Source: Terriglobia bacterium
GTDB lineage: Bacteria; Acidobacteriota; Terriglobia; Terriglobales; Acidobacteriaceae
NCBI GenBank assembly: GCA_020072815.1
Contig: JAIQGE010000001.1
Span: forward strand, 496,001-560,000
Direction: 5' to 3'
DNA: 64,000 nt
A program made the position numbers and the translations under genes. The notes under the pieces were generated by a model. The model ran no database searches. It was not told the origin of the DNA and saw only the letters and a program-made list of their open reading frames with translations. Shown here piece by piece: positions 4,775-18,689 of this stretch (position 1 is the first letter of the stretch; each line of letters begins with the position of its first letter).

Positions 4775-6048
4775 GCATCCTGCTGGTTTACATCTCGATC
4801 CTTCTGCTCTGCGCCTTGCTGGTGCTGGTCTCATACGTGGACCGTCTGTACACCGAGTCCGGCAAATTCCTCTCGCGTGAGTTTCAGGAAAACATTGAAG
4901 CCTTTGACAAGTGGGTTGAGCCGCGCCTGCACTCGGCCAGCGGGCGCGCCGCATTGGCCTTCGCCATGCTCACCCAGCTCTGCACCGCGGCCATCGCGCT
5001 GCTGATCGCCTACCTGGTCTTTGTGGACCTCCGCTGGACCATCCCGGAGATCATCCAGGCGGCGGTGGGCATCATTCTGGTGGTAATCGTCTGCCACCGC
5101 CTGCTGCCCTTCGTCCTGTTCACCCGCACGCGCGGTGAATGGCTGGTGCGCTTCGCCCTGTTGCTCCAGTTGCTCATCTACATCATGCTGCCCTTCACCC
5201 TGGTGCTGGGCTTCGGGCTTTCCGTGGCCGCGCTGGCCGAACCGCATGAGCCCGAACAAGTGGAACATCCTTCCGAAGCGGTGGACGCCCTGATTGAAGC
5301 CGGGCAGGAAGAAGGCATCCTGCAGGAGAGTGACCGCCAGCTCATCCAATCCGTGGTCGAGTTTGGCGACAAGACCGTGCGCGAAGTCATGACCCCGCGT
5401 CCGGACATCGTTGCCGTTCCCGCCGACGCCACCATTGAAGAGCTCACCACGCTGCTGCGCCAGAAACCCCACTCCCGCGTTCCCGTGTACGTGGACAACA
5501 TTGATCAGATCCAGGGCATGGCGCTTTCCCATGACATCATCCAGATTGCCGACACCGAAGCCAAGACCTCGCTGGTGAAACATATGATGCGTCCCGTGCT
5601 GTTTGTGCCGGAAACCAAAAAGACCTCCGCCCTGCTGCGCGAGATGCAGAAAGAAAACATCCACATGGCCATTGTGATTGACGAATACGGTGGCGTCGCC
5701 GGCCTGGCCACGCTGGAAGACCTCGTCGAAGAAATCGTCGGCGAGATTCGCGACGAACATGAAGATTCCAATGACGTGGTCCGCGAAGGCGAGAGCGCCT
5801 ATGTCATCAAAGGCACCGTGGACGTGGGACGCCTCGAAGACCTCTTCGACCTGCGCCTGGAGCCGCGCGACACCACCACCGTCGGAGGCCTGGTCAGCGC
5901 GATGGTTGGCCGCATTCCCCAGCCGGGCGAGGTCATCGAAGAGGAAGCCCTGCGTTTTGAAATCCTGGAATCCACTGACCGCAAAGTGGATAAAGTCCGC
6001 GTCAGCCGCGCCCAACCGGGTCCGCAGCCGGCTCAGGCGGCGGTCTAA
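4771..6048 (+). CDS. HlyC/CorC (CNNM-like) CBS-domain membrane protein
   Basis: 425 residues. Hydrophobic segments lie at about 1-22, 60-86, 92-112 and 126-152 (DUF21-type membrane part). A CBS pair follows (about 205-325, with VMTPRPDIVAVP and IDEYGGVAGLATLEDLVEEIVGEI) and then a C-terminal CorC/HlyC domain (about 338-412, with TTVGGLVSAMVGRIPQPGE). Family members are implicated in Mg/Co ion export or regulation; substrate cannot be told from sequence. ATGA overlap with ybeY upstream and TAATG overlap with era downstream make a tight three-gene unit. Confidence 0.92.
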   Translation: MSILLVYISILLLCALLVLVSYVDRLYTESGKFLSREFQENIEAFDKWVEPRLHSASGRAALAFAMLTQLCTAAIALLIAYLVFVDLRWTIPEIIQAAVGIILVVIVCHRLLPFVLFTRTRGEWLVRFALLLQLLIYIMLPFTLVLGFGLSVAALAEPHEPEQVEHPSEAVDALIEAGQEEGILQESDRQLIQSVVEFGDKTVREVMTPRPDIVAVPADATIEELTTLLRQKPHSRVPVYVDNIDQIQGMALSHDIIQIADTEAKTSLVKHMMRPVLFVPETKKTSALLREMQKENIHMAIVIDEYGGVAGLATLEDLVEEIVGEIRDEHEDSNDVVREGESAYVIKGTVDVGRLEDLFDLRLEPRDTTTVGGLVSAMVGRIPQPGEVIEEEALRFEILESTDRKVDKVRVSRAQPGPQPAQAAV

Positions 6049-6965
6049 TGGCCTTTCACTCCGGATTTGTCTCCATCATCGGCCGGCCCAACGCCGGCAA
6101 AAGCACGTTGCTCAATGCTCTGGTCGGCGAGAAAGTGGCCATCGTCACGGAGAAGCCGCAGACCACGCGCACCCGCATACAGGGCATGGTGAATGTGAAA
6201 GCCCAAAAAGGCCGCGAGGCGGGACAAATCATCTTCATTGATACGCCCGGAGTGCATCGCCCGGACAGCCGTCTCAACCGCAAGATGATGTCAGAGATTC
6301 ACGCCGCGCTGGAAAGCCGCGACATTATTCTGCTCATCGTTGATGTGACAACCGCTGACGCCGCCGGCAAGGTCGGCCTCGCCGACCAGCACGTCCTCGA
6401 CCTCGTCAAGCGCTCCGGCGGCCCGGTCTTTCTGCTGCTCAACAAAATTGACCGTTTGCAGAAAGACAAACTGCTGCCGATCATCGAGCATTACAGCAAG
6501 CTGCATGACTTTCAGGAGATTATTCCCATCTCCGCCATGAAGGGCGTTGGCCTGGATGTCCTGACCGACAAAGTCATCCGCGCGCTGCCCGTCGGCCCGC
6601 GCTATTTTCCGCAAGACCAGTTTACGGACCAACCGGAGCGCGTCATCGCCGGCGAGATCATCCGCGAGAAAGTCCTGATCAAGACCGCCAAGGAACTTCC
6701 TTACGCCACCGCCGTAGTGGTTGAGCGATACGAGGACACGCCCAAGCTGACGCGCATCGCCGCCGCCATCTTCTGCGAACGCGATGGACAAAAAGCCATC
6801 CTGATCGGCAAAGGCGGCCAGAAGCTGAAAGAGATAGGCACGGCCGCGCGCATGGAACTGGAAAATCTGCTCGGCAAGAAAGTCTACCTGGAACTGTTCG
6901 TCAAGGTAAAAGCCGGCTGGCGGGAGTCAGCGTCGTTTGTGGATGAGCTGGATTGGCGAAGGTAG
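6048..6965 (+). CDS. era: GTPase Era
   Basis: 305 residues. G1 GRPNAGKS (12-19), G3 DTPGVH, G4 NKID, then a C-terminal KH domain with the IGKGGQKLKEIG loop and the closing KVYLELFVKVKAGWRE segment characteristic of Era. It binds the 3' end of 16S rRNA and monitors 30S maturation, functionally linked to YbeY two genes upstream. The start overlaps the previous stop by one base. Confidence 0.97.
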   Translation: MAFHSGFVSIIGRPNAGKSTLLNALVGEKVAIVTEKPQTTRTRIQGMVNVKAQKGREAGQIIFIDTPGVHRPDSRLNRKMMSEIHAALESRDIILLIVDVTTADAAGKVGLADQHVLDLVKRSGGPVFLLLNKIDRLQKDKLLPIIEHYSKLHDFQEIIPISAMKGVGLDVLTDKVIRALPVGPRYFPQDQFTDQPERVIAGEIIREKVLIKTAKELPYATAVVVERYEDTPKLTRIAAAIFCERDGQKAILIGKGGQKLKEIGTAARMELENLLGKKVYLELFVKVKAGWRESASFVDELDWRR

Positions 6966-7209
6966 GACAGCGTAAACCTACGTAGACGATGGTGTAAGTG
7001 ATAGCAGAATCAAGCATTTACAGCGCCGAATACGGAGGCTCGTAAGACTGGTTTTGACCGTCAAGGCTTCGGACAATCGTGCTATCCTTTAAGAATGCGA
7101 TCTGCTTTGTCCGGCACGGCCATGCGGCCAATCCATCCCACTGCGTCGCGAACGACAAATTCTTGTGCTGGGCCAGAAAATTCCCAAACGCTTGGGTTAT
7201 TCAATAAAA

Positions 7210-7997: not shown

Positions 7998-8441
7998 ATG
8001 TGCGATCAAGACTTTGAGAATAGGGGCGATCTAGTTCCCGAAGAGACCGTCTTATTTAGAGGCTGCAGTAGTTCCAATTTCCTTTCCAAGCCCAATCGCG
8101 ACAGCGTGCGAGATCGGGCATTCCTTAAAGACGGAGCGCGTCACCCCGACGGAATGTCTTTGGGGTTCACGATGATCGATTCTGTTAGAGACCTAAGGGA
8201 AAACCATGGAGCCGTGAGCATTCTTGTCAGGGATATCTACACAGCTGCTGCAAGCGTAGGCATTGCTGTGGAGGTTCGGTATGACCTTTCTGACCGAGAG
8301 CATCACGCTCGCATCCATAACATGCCATGCAAGAACAGGGCGCAAGAAGAACGCGATGCACTGAACTTTGCTGAACAGCTCGCGAAGCGAGCCCAAGTCG
8401 CGTCTCCTAACCCGATTGTCATTGCGCAAGAGCAGCCATGA
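7998..8441 (+). CDS. Unknown protein with an FRG-like start and HARI motif, third gene of the cassette
   Basis: 147 residues. N-terminal V-L-F-R-G, a D-G-M-S-L-G-F middle, then E-H-H-A-R-I-H-N-M-P followed by an Ala-rich helix. From memory this pattern (L-[FY]-R near the start and HAxIxGLP near the end) occurs in an uncharacterised family scattered through bacterial accessory DNA; I cannot confirm it. No signal peptide or membrane segment. GC about 50%. At its stop another ATGA overlap opens a 38-codon Arg/Ser-rich frame ending at 8554, which may be a decayed fourth gene. Confidence 0.72.
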   Translation: MCDQDFENRGDLVPEETVLFRGCSSSNFLSKPNRDSVRDRAFLKDGARHPDGMSLGFTMIDSVRDLRENHGAVSILVRDIYTAAASVGIAVEVRYDLSDREHHARIHNMPCKNRAQEERDALNFAEQLAKRAQVASPNPIVIAQEQP

Positions 8442-9041
8442 GCCTGCGCGCTATTCGACTGCGATCCGAGTGCCTACGATGCTCGCCTCGGCGACGTACC
8501 GGGCTACCATCGGCGAGTCCCTGGCGGGACTCAAGCAGCGTGAGCCTGACCTAAGCATGTTTATGGCGCCCGGCTGTCCGCTGTCCGGAAACGAACACCT
8601 CCACAACACCCTCTTGTCAAGATGTACTACTTCGTACTGTATTCGTTACTGAAATTGCGCTAGGATGAAGCTGCGCCAAGGTGCGCAGGGTCTTTGACAA
8701 TCAGCAGCTAGCAATTAGCAACTGGCAAATAGCCAAGGCAAACCAGACTTTGACGGAGCGGCTTCGACTGGGCGGTTACCGTTCGGTGACCGGCCGATGA
8801 CCGACCGGTGACCGGCCGGTGACCGGCCGGTCGAATGTGTTTGGGCCTTTGTTTGCAACACATCCTGGCGAAAGGGGGGTGGCCAAGGAGATTGCCAGAA
8901 TCGCCGCAATTGCCAAAGATTGGCGATTTGAATTCTCTGCTCCGTGCTTCCGTGGTGAGATTCGATTGGGATGGATCGCCCTAAAGGGTGGCTATCACGA
9001 AGCAGGCGTTCCCTCGCTCCGCTTCGGGATAAAGAAACAAA
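8442..9041. other. 600-base non-coding stretch downstream of the cassette
   Basis: No convincing gene. It contains the possible decayed frame from 8438 to 8554, a run of AGCTAGCAATTAGCAA-like sequence near 8705-8735, the 11-bp tandem repeat at 8774-8828, and a TCCGTGCTTCCGTGGTGA segment near 8943 that resembles the C/T-rich repeats at 22408 and 57846. It separates the cassette from convergent ntrX. Confidence 0.6.
8774..8828. repeat. 11-bp tandem repeat, five units
   Basis: Five consecutive 11-bp units, three of them exactly GGTGACCGGCC (8785-8795, 8807-8817, 8818-8828), the others variants (8774-8784, 8796-8806). A GGTC remnant follows. Confidence 0.9.
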
Positions 9042-10389
<1,348 letters not shown>

Positions 10390-10397
<8 letters not shown>

Positions 10398-12627
10398 TCC
10401 GGGCCTCCGCCAGCGTCACTTCGCCGGCCAAAGGAAGTTCAACGATGAACTTGGCGCCCGCCGGTTTGTTCTCCTCTACGCGAACGTTGCCGCGATGGTC
10501 TTCCACAATGCGCCGCACAATCGCCAGGCCCAGGCCGGTCCCGCGCTTCTTGGTGGAAAAATAAGGCAGGAAAAGTTTCTCTTTCATGTCGCGGTTAATG
10601 CCGTGGCCGGTATCGGCAATCATCACTTCCAGCGCGTCATGGTCTTCCAGCAAAGTTGTGGTGATATGAATTTCCCGCACCAGCGAGTCCTTCATGGCTT
10701 CCGCGGCGTTATCAATCAGGTTGGCCAGCGCGCGCTTGATGGCGTCCGGATCGGCCATGGCCAGGGGCAGGCCGGAGTCCAGCTGCTTCTCCACGCGGAT
10801 GCCGTCCAGCCGGCCGTTGAACATGGCCAGGGTGCTCTCGACAATTTCATTGATGTCCGACGGCCGCGGCTGGGCTGCGGGAAAACGCGCCAGCGACGAA
10901 AATTCATCCACCAGCGCTCGCACCGTCTGTACCGCTTCGGTGATGGTCTCCGCGCAACCGTTGATCACCGCCAGCGACGCCTCTTCCGGCTTGGCGCCGC
11001 GCTCCAGGTGGCGGCGGATGCGCTCCGCGGACAGCGCAATCGGCGTGAGCGGGTTCTTGATTTCGTGGGCGACGCGGCGCGCCACCTCGCGCCACGCGGC
11101 TTCTTTCTGCGCCTTGAGCAGTTCGCTGAAATCTTCAAACACGATCACGTAGCCCAGCCGCTGCTTCCCGTGCTGCACCGACGACACGGTCACGCTGGCG
11201 TTGATCTTGTCTTTGTCCACCGGAATCTCAAACTGGGCGGCGGTCACCGTCATGCGGTCAGCCCGTCGCAAAAGGTGCTCCAGATCAGAAGCCACGTCCG
11301 GCGGGAAGATATGCTGCAGGCTGGAACCCACCAGGGGCGCGCCGCCCTGCGGCTGGAACATGCGTTGGAAGGCCATGTTGCTGTGGGTGACGCGCTGCTC
11401 CGGCCCCAGCGAGAGCACGCCGGTGGGAATGCTCTCCAAAATGGTTTCAATATGGCGGCGGCGCTGGTCCAGTTCGGTGTTGGTTGCCGTCAAGGCGCGC
11501 GCCGAGTCGTCAATCTTTTTGCGGCTGGATTCCAGCTCCGCGGCCATGCGGTTGAAAGACGCCACCAGTTCGCCCAGTTCGTCCGCCGCGGAGACCTCCA
11601 CGCGATGTTCCAGATGGCCGAGCGAAATTTCGCGGGTGGCTTCCGCCAGGGCTTCCACCGGCCGCGTAACCAGCCGGGCCACGAACAGTGACGTCCAAGT
11701 GGCGACAAACAGCACGAGCACCGTCAGCAGGGTGAGCAGGAGCATCCACAACCCGCGAATCCGCTTGCTCTCGCGGCTCAGGGCAAGATAGTTCTTCTGG
11801 TTCTGGTTGATCTGCTCCAGCGTAGGCGAGAAATTCGGAGGCAACGGCAGCCCCACCATGATGCTGCCTTTGTCGCCGGCCGCCGCCATGGCCAGGATGT
11901 ATTCCCTGTCGTGGTAATTCCACTTTTGCCAACCGCCTTCCACCTGCGCCAAAACCGGCAGGTCACGCTGCAGCGTAGGCCAGGGCCGGGGAAGGTTGAC
12001 GCTGGCCACCGCCGTGCCGTCCGCTATGGCCAGGGCAAATCCTCCCTGCAGCGTGGGCTGGTGGCGGCGAAACTCATGCAGCACGCCGGTGTAGTTGGCG
12101 GTCTCAAACGCATGCTGCACGTCAGCCGACTGCGCGATCTCCACCGCCTCCTGGTGCGCGTTGTCGCCGGCGTAATCGGCCAGCAGCTTGGCCACGCGTC
12201 CGGAGTCCTGCTGCAGTTCGTTCACCGGGGTGGAGAACCATTTGTCAATGGAGCGGTTCATCAGCCCGTAAGAGAACATGAACATCACCAGCGCCGGAGC
12301 AAACGACAGCGCCAGCGCTCCCAGCACCATGCGCGTGCGAAAATGCGAGCCCAGCACTCCCAGCCGCCGCTCCGCGTAAAGTTTGACCAGGTTACGGAAC
12401 AGGACAAATGTGAGCACCACCAGCAGCAGGAAAACCAGGGCGGAGAGCGCCAGCAGCACCAGCGTTTGCTGCGCTGAATCCGGCTCCAGTTGTTTGAGGT
12501 TGAAGGCTTGCTGGGAGAAAACCAATCCAAAAAGCACGACGATGCCCAGCGCCAGCGGGATGAGCACGATGCGCCGCAGTGAAACTGGGCGCGAAGTCTT
12601 GGGCGAATCTGGATTGGGTGCGGCCAC
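10390..12627 (-). CDS. ntrY: NtrY-like sensor histidine kinase
   Basis: 745 residues. Membrane segments at about 18-40, 57-80, 100-122 and 290-312, with a periplasmic sensor region between the third and fourth. Then HAMP (about 310-365), PAS (about 378-490), HisKA (VAHEIKNPLTPI, H521) and HATPase (NLIDNAAEAM N box, ADTGHGI G1, GTGLGLAIV G2). This order and size match NtrY. Autophosphorylates H521 and passes phosphate to the adjacent NtrX. A possible small membrane-protein gene lies 170 bases upstream on the same strand. Confidence 0.93.
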
Positions 12628-16837: not shown

Positions 16838-18265
16838 ATGTCTATTCTTCTGGCCGATGATGACGCCCAACTAGCGAATTTCCTTTCCAGGTCGCTGGAA
16901 TCTGAAGGTTATTCTGTACACACCGCGCTGGACGAACAGGCGGCCCTGGCCGAGCTCCAGCGGCAAAACTACCAGCTCATCATTTTGGACCTGAATTTTG
17001 GCCAGACCGATGGCCTCGAACTGCTGGAGCGCTTGCGCTCAGAAGGCCTGGAAACGCCCGTCATCGTGCTCAGCGCGCGCAACCGCGTTTCTGACCGCAT
17101 CCAGTCCTTCAACCTCGGGGCTGACGACTACATCACCAAACCGTTTTCTTTCCAGGAATTGGCGGCGCGGACCAGTGCCCTCCTGCGGCGCAAGACTGAC
17201 CCTTCCCTCAGCGTGTTGCGGGTGGAAAATCTGGACTTGGACCCGGTTACGCACAAAGTACATCGCGGCAAGATGGAAATTAAGCTGACTCCCAAGGAGT
17301 TTGACATGCTCCACCTGCTCCTTCGCCGCGCCGGGGAGACCGTACATCGTAGCGAACTTCTCAAGGAATGCTGGGGAGGAGAATCCGGCACGGACAGCAA
17401 CCTTGTTGACGTTTACGTTAACTACCTGCGCAAGAAGGTTGACTCCGGCAACGAACCCAAGCTGATCTACACGGTGCGCGGAGCGGGATACCGCCTGGGA
17501 CGGCCGGTGAACGGCGGGGCGGCCGGCCGCACTTTGTACGATTCCGGCCACTCCGCGGCCCATGACCCGAATTTACCGGGAACGTTTGGCGATACAGAAA
17601 GCTCGTCTTTGCAGCAAAGTCCGTTGCGCGCCCTGGTGCACTCCGTGTCCCACGATCTGGCACAACCGCTCACCAGCATCCGCTGTTTTCTGGAAGTGCT
17701 GGCACTCCGCAAAGGCGCCGTCGCAGACCAGGCCGCGGACATCAGGAACATCGAGCAACAAGCCGACCGCGCCATCGCGCTGGCCAAAGGAATTTCCGGC
17801 ATGGTGCGGGAATCGCCCCTTCCCACCGGACCCTGGACGCCACTGGATAGCTTGCTCAATGACATCTTTAACGACTTCAGTGTCCTTCTGCATTCAGGAT
17901 TGCTCAGCCTGGACCGCCAATGGGACAACTCTCTTCAGGTGACCAGCAGCCCGGTGCTGCGCCAGTTCCTGGCCCTTACCATCAGTAAACTGGTCGGCCG
18001 CAACACCCGGCCGCTGGTGCTTGCGGTTTCCTCCACCTTCGTGGACGGCCGGTGCCATTTGGACTTCCGCTGGAAACCCAGTGACGGAAAGCCGGAAGCG
18101 CTGCAGGACGTCCGCACTATCTTTGCCAAGGAGTTGCCGCACGTGGAAGAAATGGTCTCTTCCATCGGCGGAGTTCTTGCTTTTCAGGAAAATGTCCCGG
18201 AGATGACCTTGCGGCTTCCTGCGTTGTTGCAGCCCCATGCCGGGAAGTCTGGCGTCACGCAGTAG
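16838..18265 (+). CDS. OmpR-type response regulator fused to a degenerate histidine-kinase-like module
   Basis: 475 residues from ATG 16838, chosen because AAGGAAGGTGG lies directly upstream; an in-frame start 12 codons earlier is less likely. Receiver domain 1-118 (phospho-acceptor D51; K101 in TKPF), winged-helix DNA-binding domain about 125-222 (LTPKEFDMLHLLLRR ... YTVRGAGYRLG), Gly/Ser linker, then a HisKA-like helix pair with H box SHDLAQPLTSIR (H272) and about 180 further residues where an ATPase domain should be. I see no N, G1 or G2 box there, so ATP binding is doubtful. REC-wHTH followed by a HisKA half is an unusual order. Convergent with yjbQ. Confidence 0.88.
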   Translation: MSILLADDDAQLANFLSRSLESEGYSVHTALDEQAALAELQRQNYQLIILDLNFGQTDGLELLERLRSEGLETPVIVLSARNRVSDRIQSFNLGADDYITKPFSFQELAARTSALLRRKTDPSLSVLRVENLDLDPVTHKVHRGKMEIKLTPKEFDMLHLLLRRAGETVHRSELLKECWGGESGTDSNLVDVYVNYLRKKVDSGNEPKLIYTVRGAGYRLGRPVNGGAAGRTLYDSGHSAAHDPNLPGTFGDTESSSLQQSPLRALVHSVSHDLAQPLTSIRCFLEVLALRKGAVADQAADIRNIEQQADRAIALAKGISGMVRESPLPTGPWTPLDSLLNDIFNDFSVLLHSGLLSLDRQWDNSLQVTSSPVLRQFLALTISKLVGRNTRPLVLAVSSTFVDGRCHLDFRWKPSDGKPEALQDVRTIFAKELPHVEEMVSSIGGVLAFQENVPEMTLRLPALLQPHAGKSGVTQ

Positions 18266-18275
18266 GGCGGTTACT

Positions 18276-18689
18276 CTACTCACCCATTACGGCCACCACC
18301 ACGCGCTTGGACCGCTGCCCGTCAAACTCCGCATAAAAAACCCGCTGCCACGTGCCCAGCACCAGACGACCCTGGCTGATGGGCAAGATCACTTGGTGAT
18401 GCACCAGAATCGCCTTCAGGTGTGAGTCGCCGTTGTTTTCGCCGGTGTGGTGGTGCAGGTACTCTTCATGGAACGGCGCCAGCTTTTCCAGCCAGGAGTC
18501 AATGTCATGAATCAGCCCAGGTTCATTGTCATTCACATAGACCCCCGCTGTGATGTGCATGGCGGAAACCAGCGCCAGCCCGTTGCTTACCCCGCTGGCT
18601 TGCACAATCTTCTCCACCTGCGGCGTGATGTGCACGTACTCGCGATGGTGCCGGGTGTTGAAAGTCAGGTAATCGGCGTGGAATTTCAT
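18276..18689 (-). CDS. yjbQ: YjbQ family protein (UPF0047)
   Basis: 137 residues from ATG 18689, which has a GGGGGAAG upstream; a longer in-frame extension to 18926 runs across the divergent regulator gene and is not supported. Family signatures: [34 protein letters not shown] and the closing [15 protein letters not shown]. Conserved His/Glu/Asn residues are intact. Family members can have weak thiamine phosphate synthase activity; the physiological role is uncertain. Cytoplasmic, monocistronic. Confidence 0.93.

Follow-up and report, generated by a model that had tools for sequence, protein, structure and literature searches.

The gene at positions 16838-18265 of the window (the whole stretch of 64,000 nucleotides analysed here) encodes in one open reading frame a receiver, a winged helix and a tail related to histidine kinases. 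With moderate confidence, we read the predicted protein as an OmpR-type regulator fused to its own kinase-derived histidine phosphotransferase, and, as relatives encode the two halves in neighbouring genes, it has the look of a built-in phosphate-relay module. The phosphotransferase part would derive from an ordinary HisKA kinase through loss of ATP binding, and two chains would pair their DHp parts into a four-helix bundle. A receiver phosphorylated elsewhere and acting in trans, belonging either to a hybrid kinase or to a single-domain regulator, would pass its phosphoryl group to H272, which would hand it on to D51 of the attached receiver. The phosphorylated receiver would then activate the winged helix at its presumed target genes, and the fusion would fix both partner and stoichiometry.

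Few kinase-derived phosphotransferases are known (Spo0B, ChpT and PhyT), and a 'pseudo-HK' is named as one phosphotransferase form (PMC9981736, in part). Members of the present family are encoded beside, or fused to, their likely target, which removes much of the uncertainty about the partner. They also offer a testable example of a kinase decaying into a relay part, of which half-decayed forms (L048, L040, L070 and L074) persist, and a possible independent parallel to the Caulobacter cell-cycle and flagellar relay. No description of a regulator-pseudokinase pair or fusion was found among the open-licence literature matches listed (titles and starts of abstracts), and no report of a ChpT-type phosphorelay in Acidobacteria was found in the open-licence literature. 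The order receiver-winged helix-DHp-CA goes unmentioned in the available part of a survey of HK/RR fusions that counts fusion types (PMC4558063).

Domain organisation

The reading frame starts with an ATG at 16838 and runs through 475 codons to a TAG at 18263-18265; the same start (MSILLADDD) is aligned in six fused orthologues. Its features are listed below, with pN/pS values that are rough because synonymous sites are near saturation.

16838-18265, + strand: whole open reading frame, receiver - winged helix - linker - DHp (HisKA) - degenerate CA; 475 aa and stop
16844-17170, + strand: receiver, residues 3-111 (Pfam Response_reg, E 2.6e-28)
16988-16990, + strand: phospho-acceptor D51, assigned by sequence
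17276-17497, + strand: OmpR/PhoB-type winged helix, residues 147-220 (Pfam Trans_reg_C, E 4.8e-25)
17507-17611, + strand: variable linker, residues 224-258 (mean identity 0.23 and pN/pS 0.80 among seven fused proteins)
17612-17827, + strand: DHp helical hairpin, residues ~259-330 (Pfam HisKA; pN/pS 0.30; helices in a low-confidence model)
17651-17653, + strand: putative phospho-acceptor H272 in the motif HDLAQPLTS (H, Q at +4, P at +5 and T at +7 invariant in 32 of 32 family members)
17828-18232, + strand: degenerate CA (HATPase-like), residues 331-465 (hhalign and motif counts; pN/pS 0.44)

Response_reg, Trans_reg_C and HisKA (residues 264-315, E 3.5e-7) each exceed their own Pfam gathering score in the window protein and are matched in all seven fused proteins; the predicted domain assignment is far beyond chance. 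HATPase_c has no Pfam match in the window protein up to a limit of E 10 (HMMER filters drop most weak matches), nor in any of the seven fused proteins at E<=1. Compared with ordinary OmpR/PhoB regulators, the protein has about 250 extra residues beyond the winged helix, which are conserved in orthologues, and its order is not that of a hybrid kinase, as the receiver is not C-terminal to the CA domain. The original prediction had placed a receiver, a winged helix and HisKA-like helices in this order, with D51 and H272 as the key residues, and both coordinates and residues proved correct by Pfam and alignments. Beyond the reach of that prediction were the overlapping gene pair that forms the two halves in other genera and the finding of the fusion in one genus only. 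The variable linker is presumably the junction of the two ancestral genes.

Distribution in the genus

The fusion is not an oddity of one genome, although it was found only in the window's genus. Homologues with the same domain order, which the original prediction had proposed to look for, are present as full fusions in seven of the nine genomes of the genus; in one further genome (G006) the sequence stops after residue 173 of the fused gene, as at a contig end, and in another (G003) only the pseudokinase part is present. No second copy of the tail was found in the window's own genome. An aldehyde-dehydrogenase-like neighbour is matched at 80 % or more in all eight genus regions examined, and in the window a UPF0047 (YjbQ-like) gene (18276-18689, - strand) is convergent with the fused gene.

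In G003 the tail forms a 219-aa open reading frame of its own (L039:6643-7299), which adjoins the same aldehyde-dehydrogenase-like neighbour (86 % identical), with no regulator sequence left at the syntenic place. The tree of the kinase part nests G003 among the fused proteins; support is uneven (99/43), and the placement fits a loss of the regulator half after fusion. A tail kept without its regulator half may have another partner or be decaying, and counts against the phosphotransferase reading.

The missing regulator half of G003 and the linker, with its rough pN/pS of 0.80, would also suit a tail left over from the gene fusion and evolving neutrally. This reading is hardly credible, being largely refuted by conservation: the full reading frame is open in all seven genomes with both halves, and within the fused clade the DHp and CA parts are conserved in mean identity (0.69 and 0.59) and in pN/pS, for which rough values of 0.30 and 0.44 stand beside 0.11 for the receiver and 0.24 for the winged helix.

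The degenerate CA domain

Residues 331-465 are, by sequence, a decayed histidine-kinase CA domain rather than sequence of no known kind. A profile of the tail from eight genus members (seven fused proteins and G003) aligned with intact CA domains over 140 columns (hhalign probability 97.5, E 2.6e-11), with the stretch of lid and G2 gapped. In the fused clade the lid, G1 (DxGxG), G2 (GxGxG) and the N-box Asn are all gone, and the Asn is replaced by Lys (K384 in the window protein) in eight of eight genus members. Across the family, DxGxG is found in 0 and GxGxG in 1 of 32 members, compared with 34 of 35 intact kinases for each motif. The N-box Asn, scored from the aligned column since a regular expression found it in only 2 of 35 controls and was dropped, is kept in 4 of 32 members (L048, L040, L070 and L074). 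The earlier observation that the ATP-binding boxes are absent after H272 is thus borne out (HATPase_c in none of seven fused proteins, G1 box absent in all 32), and the homologue set does not present the C-terminal part as an intact kinase.

The decay is graded and has gone furthest in the window's genus. While HisKA is matched at E<=1 in all 32 family members, HATPase_c is matched at the same threshold in 8 of 32 and in none of the seven fused proteins, and a CA profile made from the intact control kinases recognises 23 of 25 unfused members at E<=1e-5 but none of the eight genus members.

A single-sequence AlphaFold model had a confidence too low to carry weight (pLDDT 52) and showed the expected order of two long helices, helix, helix, two strands, helix and two strands; a Foldseek search with this model gave no match at E<=0.001, the best matches being kinase cores, while ChpT ranked 23rd. 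Over most of its own length, a profile made from 17 members matched PDB sequences of solved kinases, among them KinB (2.1e-20), DivL and RetS; ChpT was not among these 55 matches. Pfam HPTransfase, the ChpT family, has no match in the window protein at E<=10 and none in 31 of 32 family members, with a weak match (E 0.016) in the remaining one, which counts against the phosphotransferase reading; the Spo0B and HPt families are not among the Pfam matches of the window protein or of the 32 members.

By these sequence criteria, the window protein has probably lost the use of ATP. It is quite improbable that the tail still works as a kinase through an ATP site that has escaped recognition, in which case H272 would be autophosphorylated and feed D51 in cis: the acidic residue of HDLAQPLT is kept in the genus clade (8/8) and some unfused members have a partial site (HATPase_c in 8 of 32, N-box Asn in the four named above), but all four elements of the site have gone from the fused clade and none of its seven proteins matches HATPase_c.

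Conserved residues

In the alignment of 32 members (L160 left out, L043 included in the residue counts), H272 and, relative to it, Q276 (+4), P277 (+5) and T279 (+7) are invariant, although identity between the unfused members and the window protein amounts to only 14-23 %. On the receiver side D8, D51 and K101 are invariant in seven of seven fused proteins and in 25 of 25 unfused partners, the acidic pocket, Asp and Lys of the receiver thus being intact. Conservation of H272 and D51, on which the original prediction had staked its reading, was therefore found throughout. That the His-Asp partners are kept while the ATP-site motifs are gone supports the phosphotransferase reading.

The residue after the His is D in 10, E in 1 and another residue in 21 of 32 members, so that an acidic residue is absent in 21 of 32; it is kept as D273 in all eight members of the genus clade, which counts against the phosphotransferase reading. 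At +4, Q in 32 of 32 members faces T (28), N (5) or S (2) in 35 intact kinases, counted from 41 offered. The search pattern for these controls (E, D or Q after the His; T, N, Q, S or A at +4) restricts the residue after the His, so that the controls' counts at +1 arise partly by construction. In CrdS and three other HisKA kinases, the acidic residue is needed for autokinase and the T/N residue for phosphatase activity, and an N-to-Q change at the T/N site of CrdS abolishes the latter (PMC3510030, in part). By this yardstick, much of the family would lack the marks of both activities while keeping the phospho-acceptor, and Q in place of T/N/S supports the phosphotransferase reading. FixL-type kinases with HELNQP likewise carry Q at +4, so that Q alone cannot exclude phosphatase activity.

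The same conserved residues would fit a phosphate sink, in which D51 is phosphorylated directly by another kinase and H272 or the DHp bundle removes the phosphoryl group, by reverse transfer or hydrolysis, so that the regulator stays active for a limited time. The phosphorylating enzyme could then be any kinase that the genome encodes, and PhyT was at first taken for a phosphatase (PMC5898713, in part). We consider a sink unlikely, as the T/N phosphatase residue of HisKA is Q in every member and the equivalent change removed CrdS phosphatase activity (PMC3510030, in part), an argument by which reverse transfer is unaffected.

A tail that acts by binding only, dimerising the regulator or sensing the state of a receiver, with the His kept for docking and not for chemistry, is also unlikely, if marginally less so. 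DivL and RetS are thought to act in this way by sensing receiver state; both are among the PDB sequence matches of the family profile, and the CA domain is less constrained than the DHp domain (pN/pS 0.44 against 0.30, both rough). DivL, however, has Tyr in place of the phospho-acceptor His, and here the His is invariant in 32 of 32 members despite their divergence. The original prediction had offered two roles for the tail; of these, phosphotransfer at a site supplied by another kinase has the better support, and a pure dimerisation module has less.

Unfused relatives and ancestry

In other genera the halves are separate genes. The pseudokinase, about 214-283 aa long, lies directly 3' of an OmpR-type regulator gene in 25 of 25 unfused loci, and the two genes overlap by 4 bases in 17 of 23 measured loci (L040 and L160 left out; gene starts chosen mechanically). 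In L040 the regulator and the sigma-54 activator downstream of it (8076-8787 and 5962-7204, - strand) are both split between frames, the regulator by a frame shift, perhaps through assembly errors.

When 397 genomes of the order were searched with a profile, 394 gave some match at E<=1e-15, and the best 30 loci were opened (7 fused, G003 and 22 stand-alone); to these came G128 and G149, reached through weak matches in a separate search, and G014 from a sample of the phylum. In that sample of 396 genomes, matches well above the level of ordinary kinases came from two genomes, the window's and G018. Of the 30 phylum loci opened (L115-L144), 27 held ordinary kinases and the other three were members of the family (window, G018 and G014); a receiver upstream within one reading frame was seen in the window gene alone. 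As at most seven candidates were scored per genome and G014 was not distinct from ordinary kinases, members may have been missed in this search. Outside the phylum, the sole search was a scan of a contig collection with the full protein, which gave one locus, a receiver match on a Lachnospiraceae contig (L038) that was left out of the analysis.

Phylogenetic analysis of 59 regulators (29 of 30 offered unlinked regulators included; L043 and L160 left out) placed the seven fused regulators in one group (100/100), within a branch (99/96) that holds all 23 pair regulators, the seven fused ones and four others, namely three orphan regulators of the window's genus, sister to the fused group, and one long-branch row. 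These orphan OmpR-type regulators (L002, L094 and L097) have no adjoining pseudokinase; L002 and L094 adjoin reading frames that appear to encode PAS-containing kinases. Among 68 DHp-CA sequences placed in a tree, L043 included, the 35 intact kinases stand apart from all 33 pseudokinases (100/98), with L043 and L048 closest to the intact kinases. At 1.2 and 2.5 changes per site the branch of the fused proteins is long, which leaves its exact position unsure. In seven genomes with the unfused pair, the best regulator match adjoins the pseudokinase in six (G149, G057, G018, G029, G036 and G128); in the exception, G031, the regulator is frame-shifted. With pseudokinases apart from intact kinases and partner regulators in one branch together with four others, the simplest account is one ancestral two-gene pair followed by fusion in the window's genus.

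Gene neighbourhoods

In neighbourhoods that differ in length, some of them stopping at contig ends, the gene immediately downstream of the pseudokinase is a sigma-54-activator homologue in 10 of 25 unfused loci (in L040 it is split), and homologues of both FliF and FlgC occur no more than about 8 kb away in 5 of 25; Pfam confirms FliF and a rod protein in L047 and FliF in L044. A kinase that we take to be CckA-like from its HDFNN-type H-box (HDFNN or HDVNN) adjoins the pair in three loci, two with hybrids. These are a PAS-HisKA-HATPase-REC hybrid directly 5' of the pair (L044:5511-8529), a kinase without a receiver upstream of it (L047:5710-8423) and a HisKA-HATPase-REC hybrid convergent with it (L048:3929-6968); L044 and L047 also hold the sigma-54 activator and flagellar genes. 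Hybrid kinases of the PAS-HisKA-HATPase-REC kind are the usual type of phosphoryl donor. A locus with a CckA-like kinase and the pair is a candidate for a complete relay, and the hybrids beside the pair in L044 and L048 support the phosphotransferase reading, against which the 22 of 25 loci with no adjoining CckA-like kinase count.

A hybrid kinase as a constant part of the unfused loci was rejected, CckA-like kinases adjoining the pair in only 3 of 25. Kinases of the HEIRNP/HEVRNP or HEINNP type lie farther off in L044, L045, L146, L148 and L153. In L040, L145 and L149 a gene transcribed divergently from the pair encodes a receiver protein, which in L040 is of the receiver-HD type by Pfam; this protein is a possible phosphoryl donor. 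By a CA profile (E<=1e-12) the 64-kb window holds a single intact kinase, which is NtrY-like and lies about 4 kb from the fused gene; the region 9045-12627 (- strand) holds this kinase with an NtrC-like receiver protein beside it. This, too, counts against the phosphotransferase reading; the NtrY-like kinase may be considered as a donor.

The flagellar M-ring gene, for FliF, was found in 8 of 14 pair-bearing genomes and in one of eight genus genomes searched, which is not the window's. The fused gene as a flagellar regulator is therefore unsupported, and a flagellar link, if real, would not be its role in most of the genus. We tentatively suggest, as a possibility that we would not yet favour, that the phylum evolved its own relay of the CckA-ChpT-CtrA kind separately from the alphaproteobacteria, and that in the window's genus phosphotransferase and regulator were fused into a single relay protein with another purpose. 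The relay locus envisaged consists of a hybrid kinase, a kinase-derived phosphotransferase and an OmpR-type regulator, with a sigma-54 activator and early flagellar genes as neighbours.

Comparison with known systems

ChpT of Caulobacter, in the CckA-ChpT-CtrA relay, combines a DHp domain whose His shuttles phosphate with a CA domain that no longer binds ATP (PMC3433190, in part). The window family appears similar in sequence, with a DHp phospho-acceptor His and a CA domain without an ATP site. CtrA, the partner of ChpT, is an OmpR-type DNA-binding regulator, as is the partner here, and some unfused loci add a CckA-like kinase and flagellar genes. Unlike ChpT, the window family matches HPTransfase in only one member and is encoded directly behind, or fused to, its regulator, and it looks to have been derived separately.

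Spo0B of Bacillus is a dimeric phosphotransferase regarded as a degenerated kinase (PMC3433190 and PMC5898713, both in part). The window tail appears to be a degenerated kinase as well, but without a Pfam match of its family to Spo0B. To our knowledge, Spo0B is neither linked nor fused to a DNA-binding regulator of the OmpR type.

PhyT of Sphingomonas, a kinase-like protein with a degenerate ATPase domain, takes phosphate from a receiver protein and hands it to a regulator, at whose locus its own gene lies (PMC5898713, in part). It is membrane-anchored with an HRxxN motif, whereas the window family is short, with HxxxQPxT and a winged-helix partner. LvrB has the order Rec-DHp-CA and autophosphorylates (PMC13269768, in part); it shares with the window protein a receiver N-terminal to DHp-CA in one chain, but the latter has a DNA-binding domain between receiver and DHp and, judging from its motifs, a dead CA domain. 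As to OmpR/EnvZ-type pairs, 21 of the 27 ordinary-kinase loci that the profile reached in the phylum sample have a receiver-winged-helix regulator reading frame nearby; unlike such kinases, the window tail lacks a sensor and an ATP site and has Q instead of T/N/S at +4. By analogy, the window family would work like ChpT, Spo0B and PhyT, while falling outside the Pfam families of ChpT, Spo0B and HPt.
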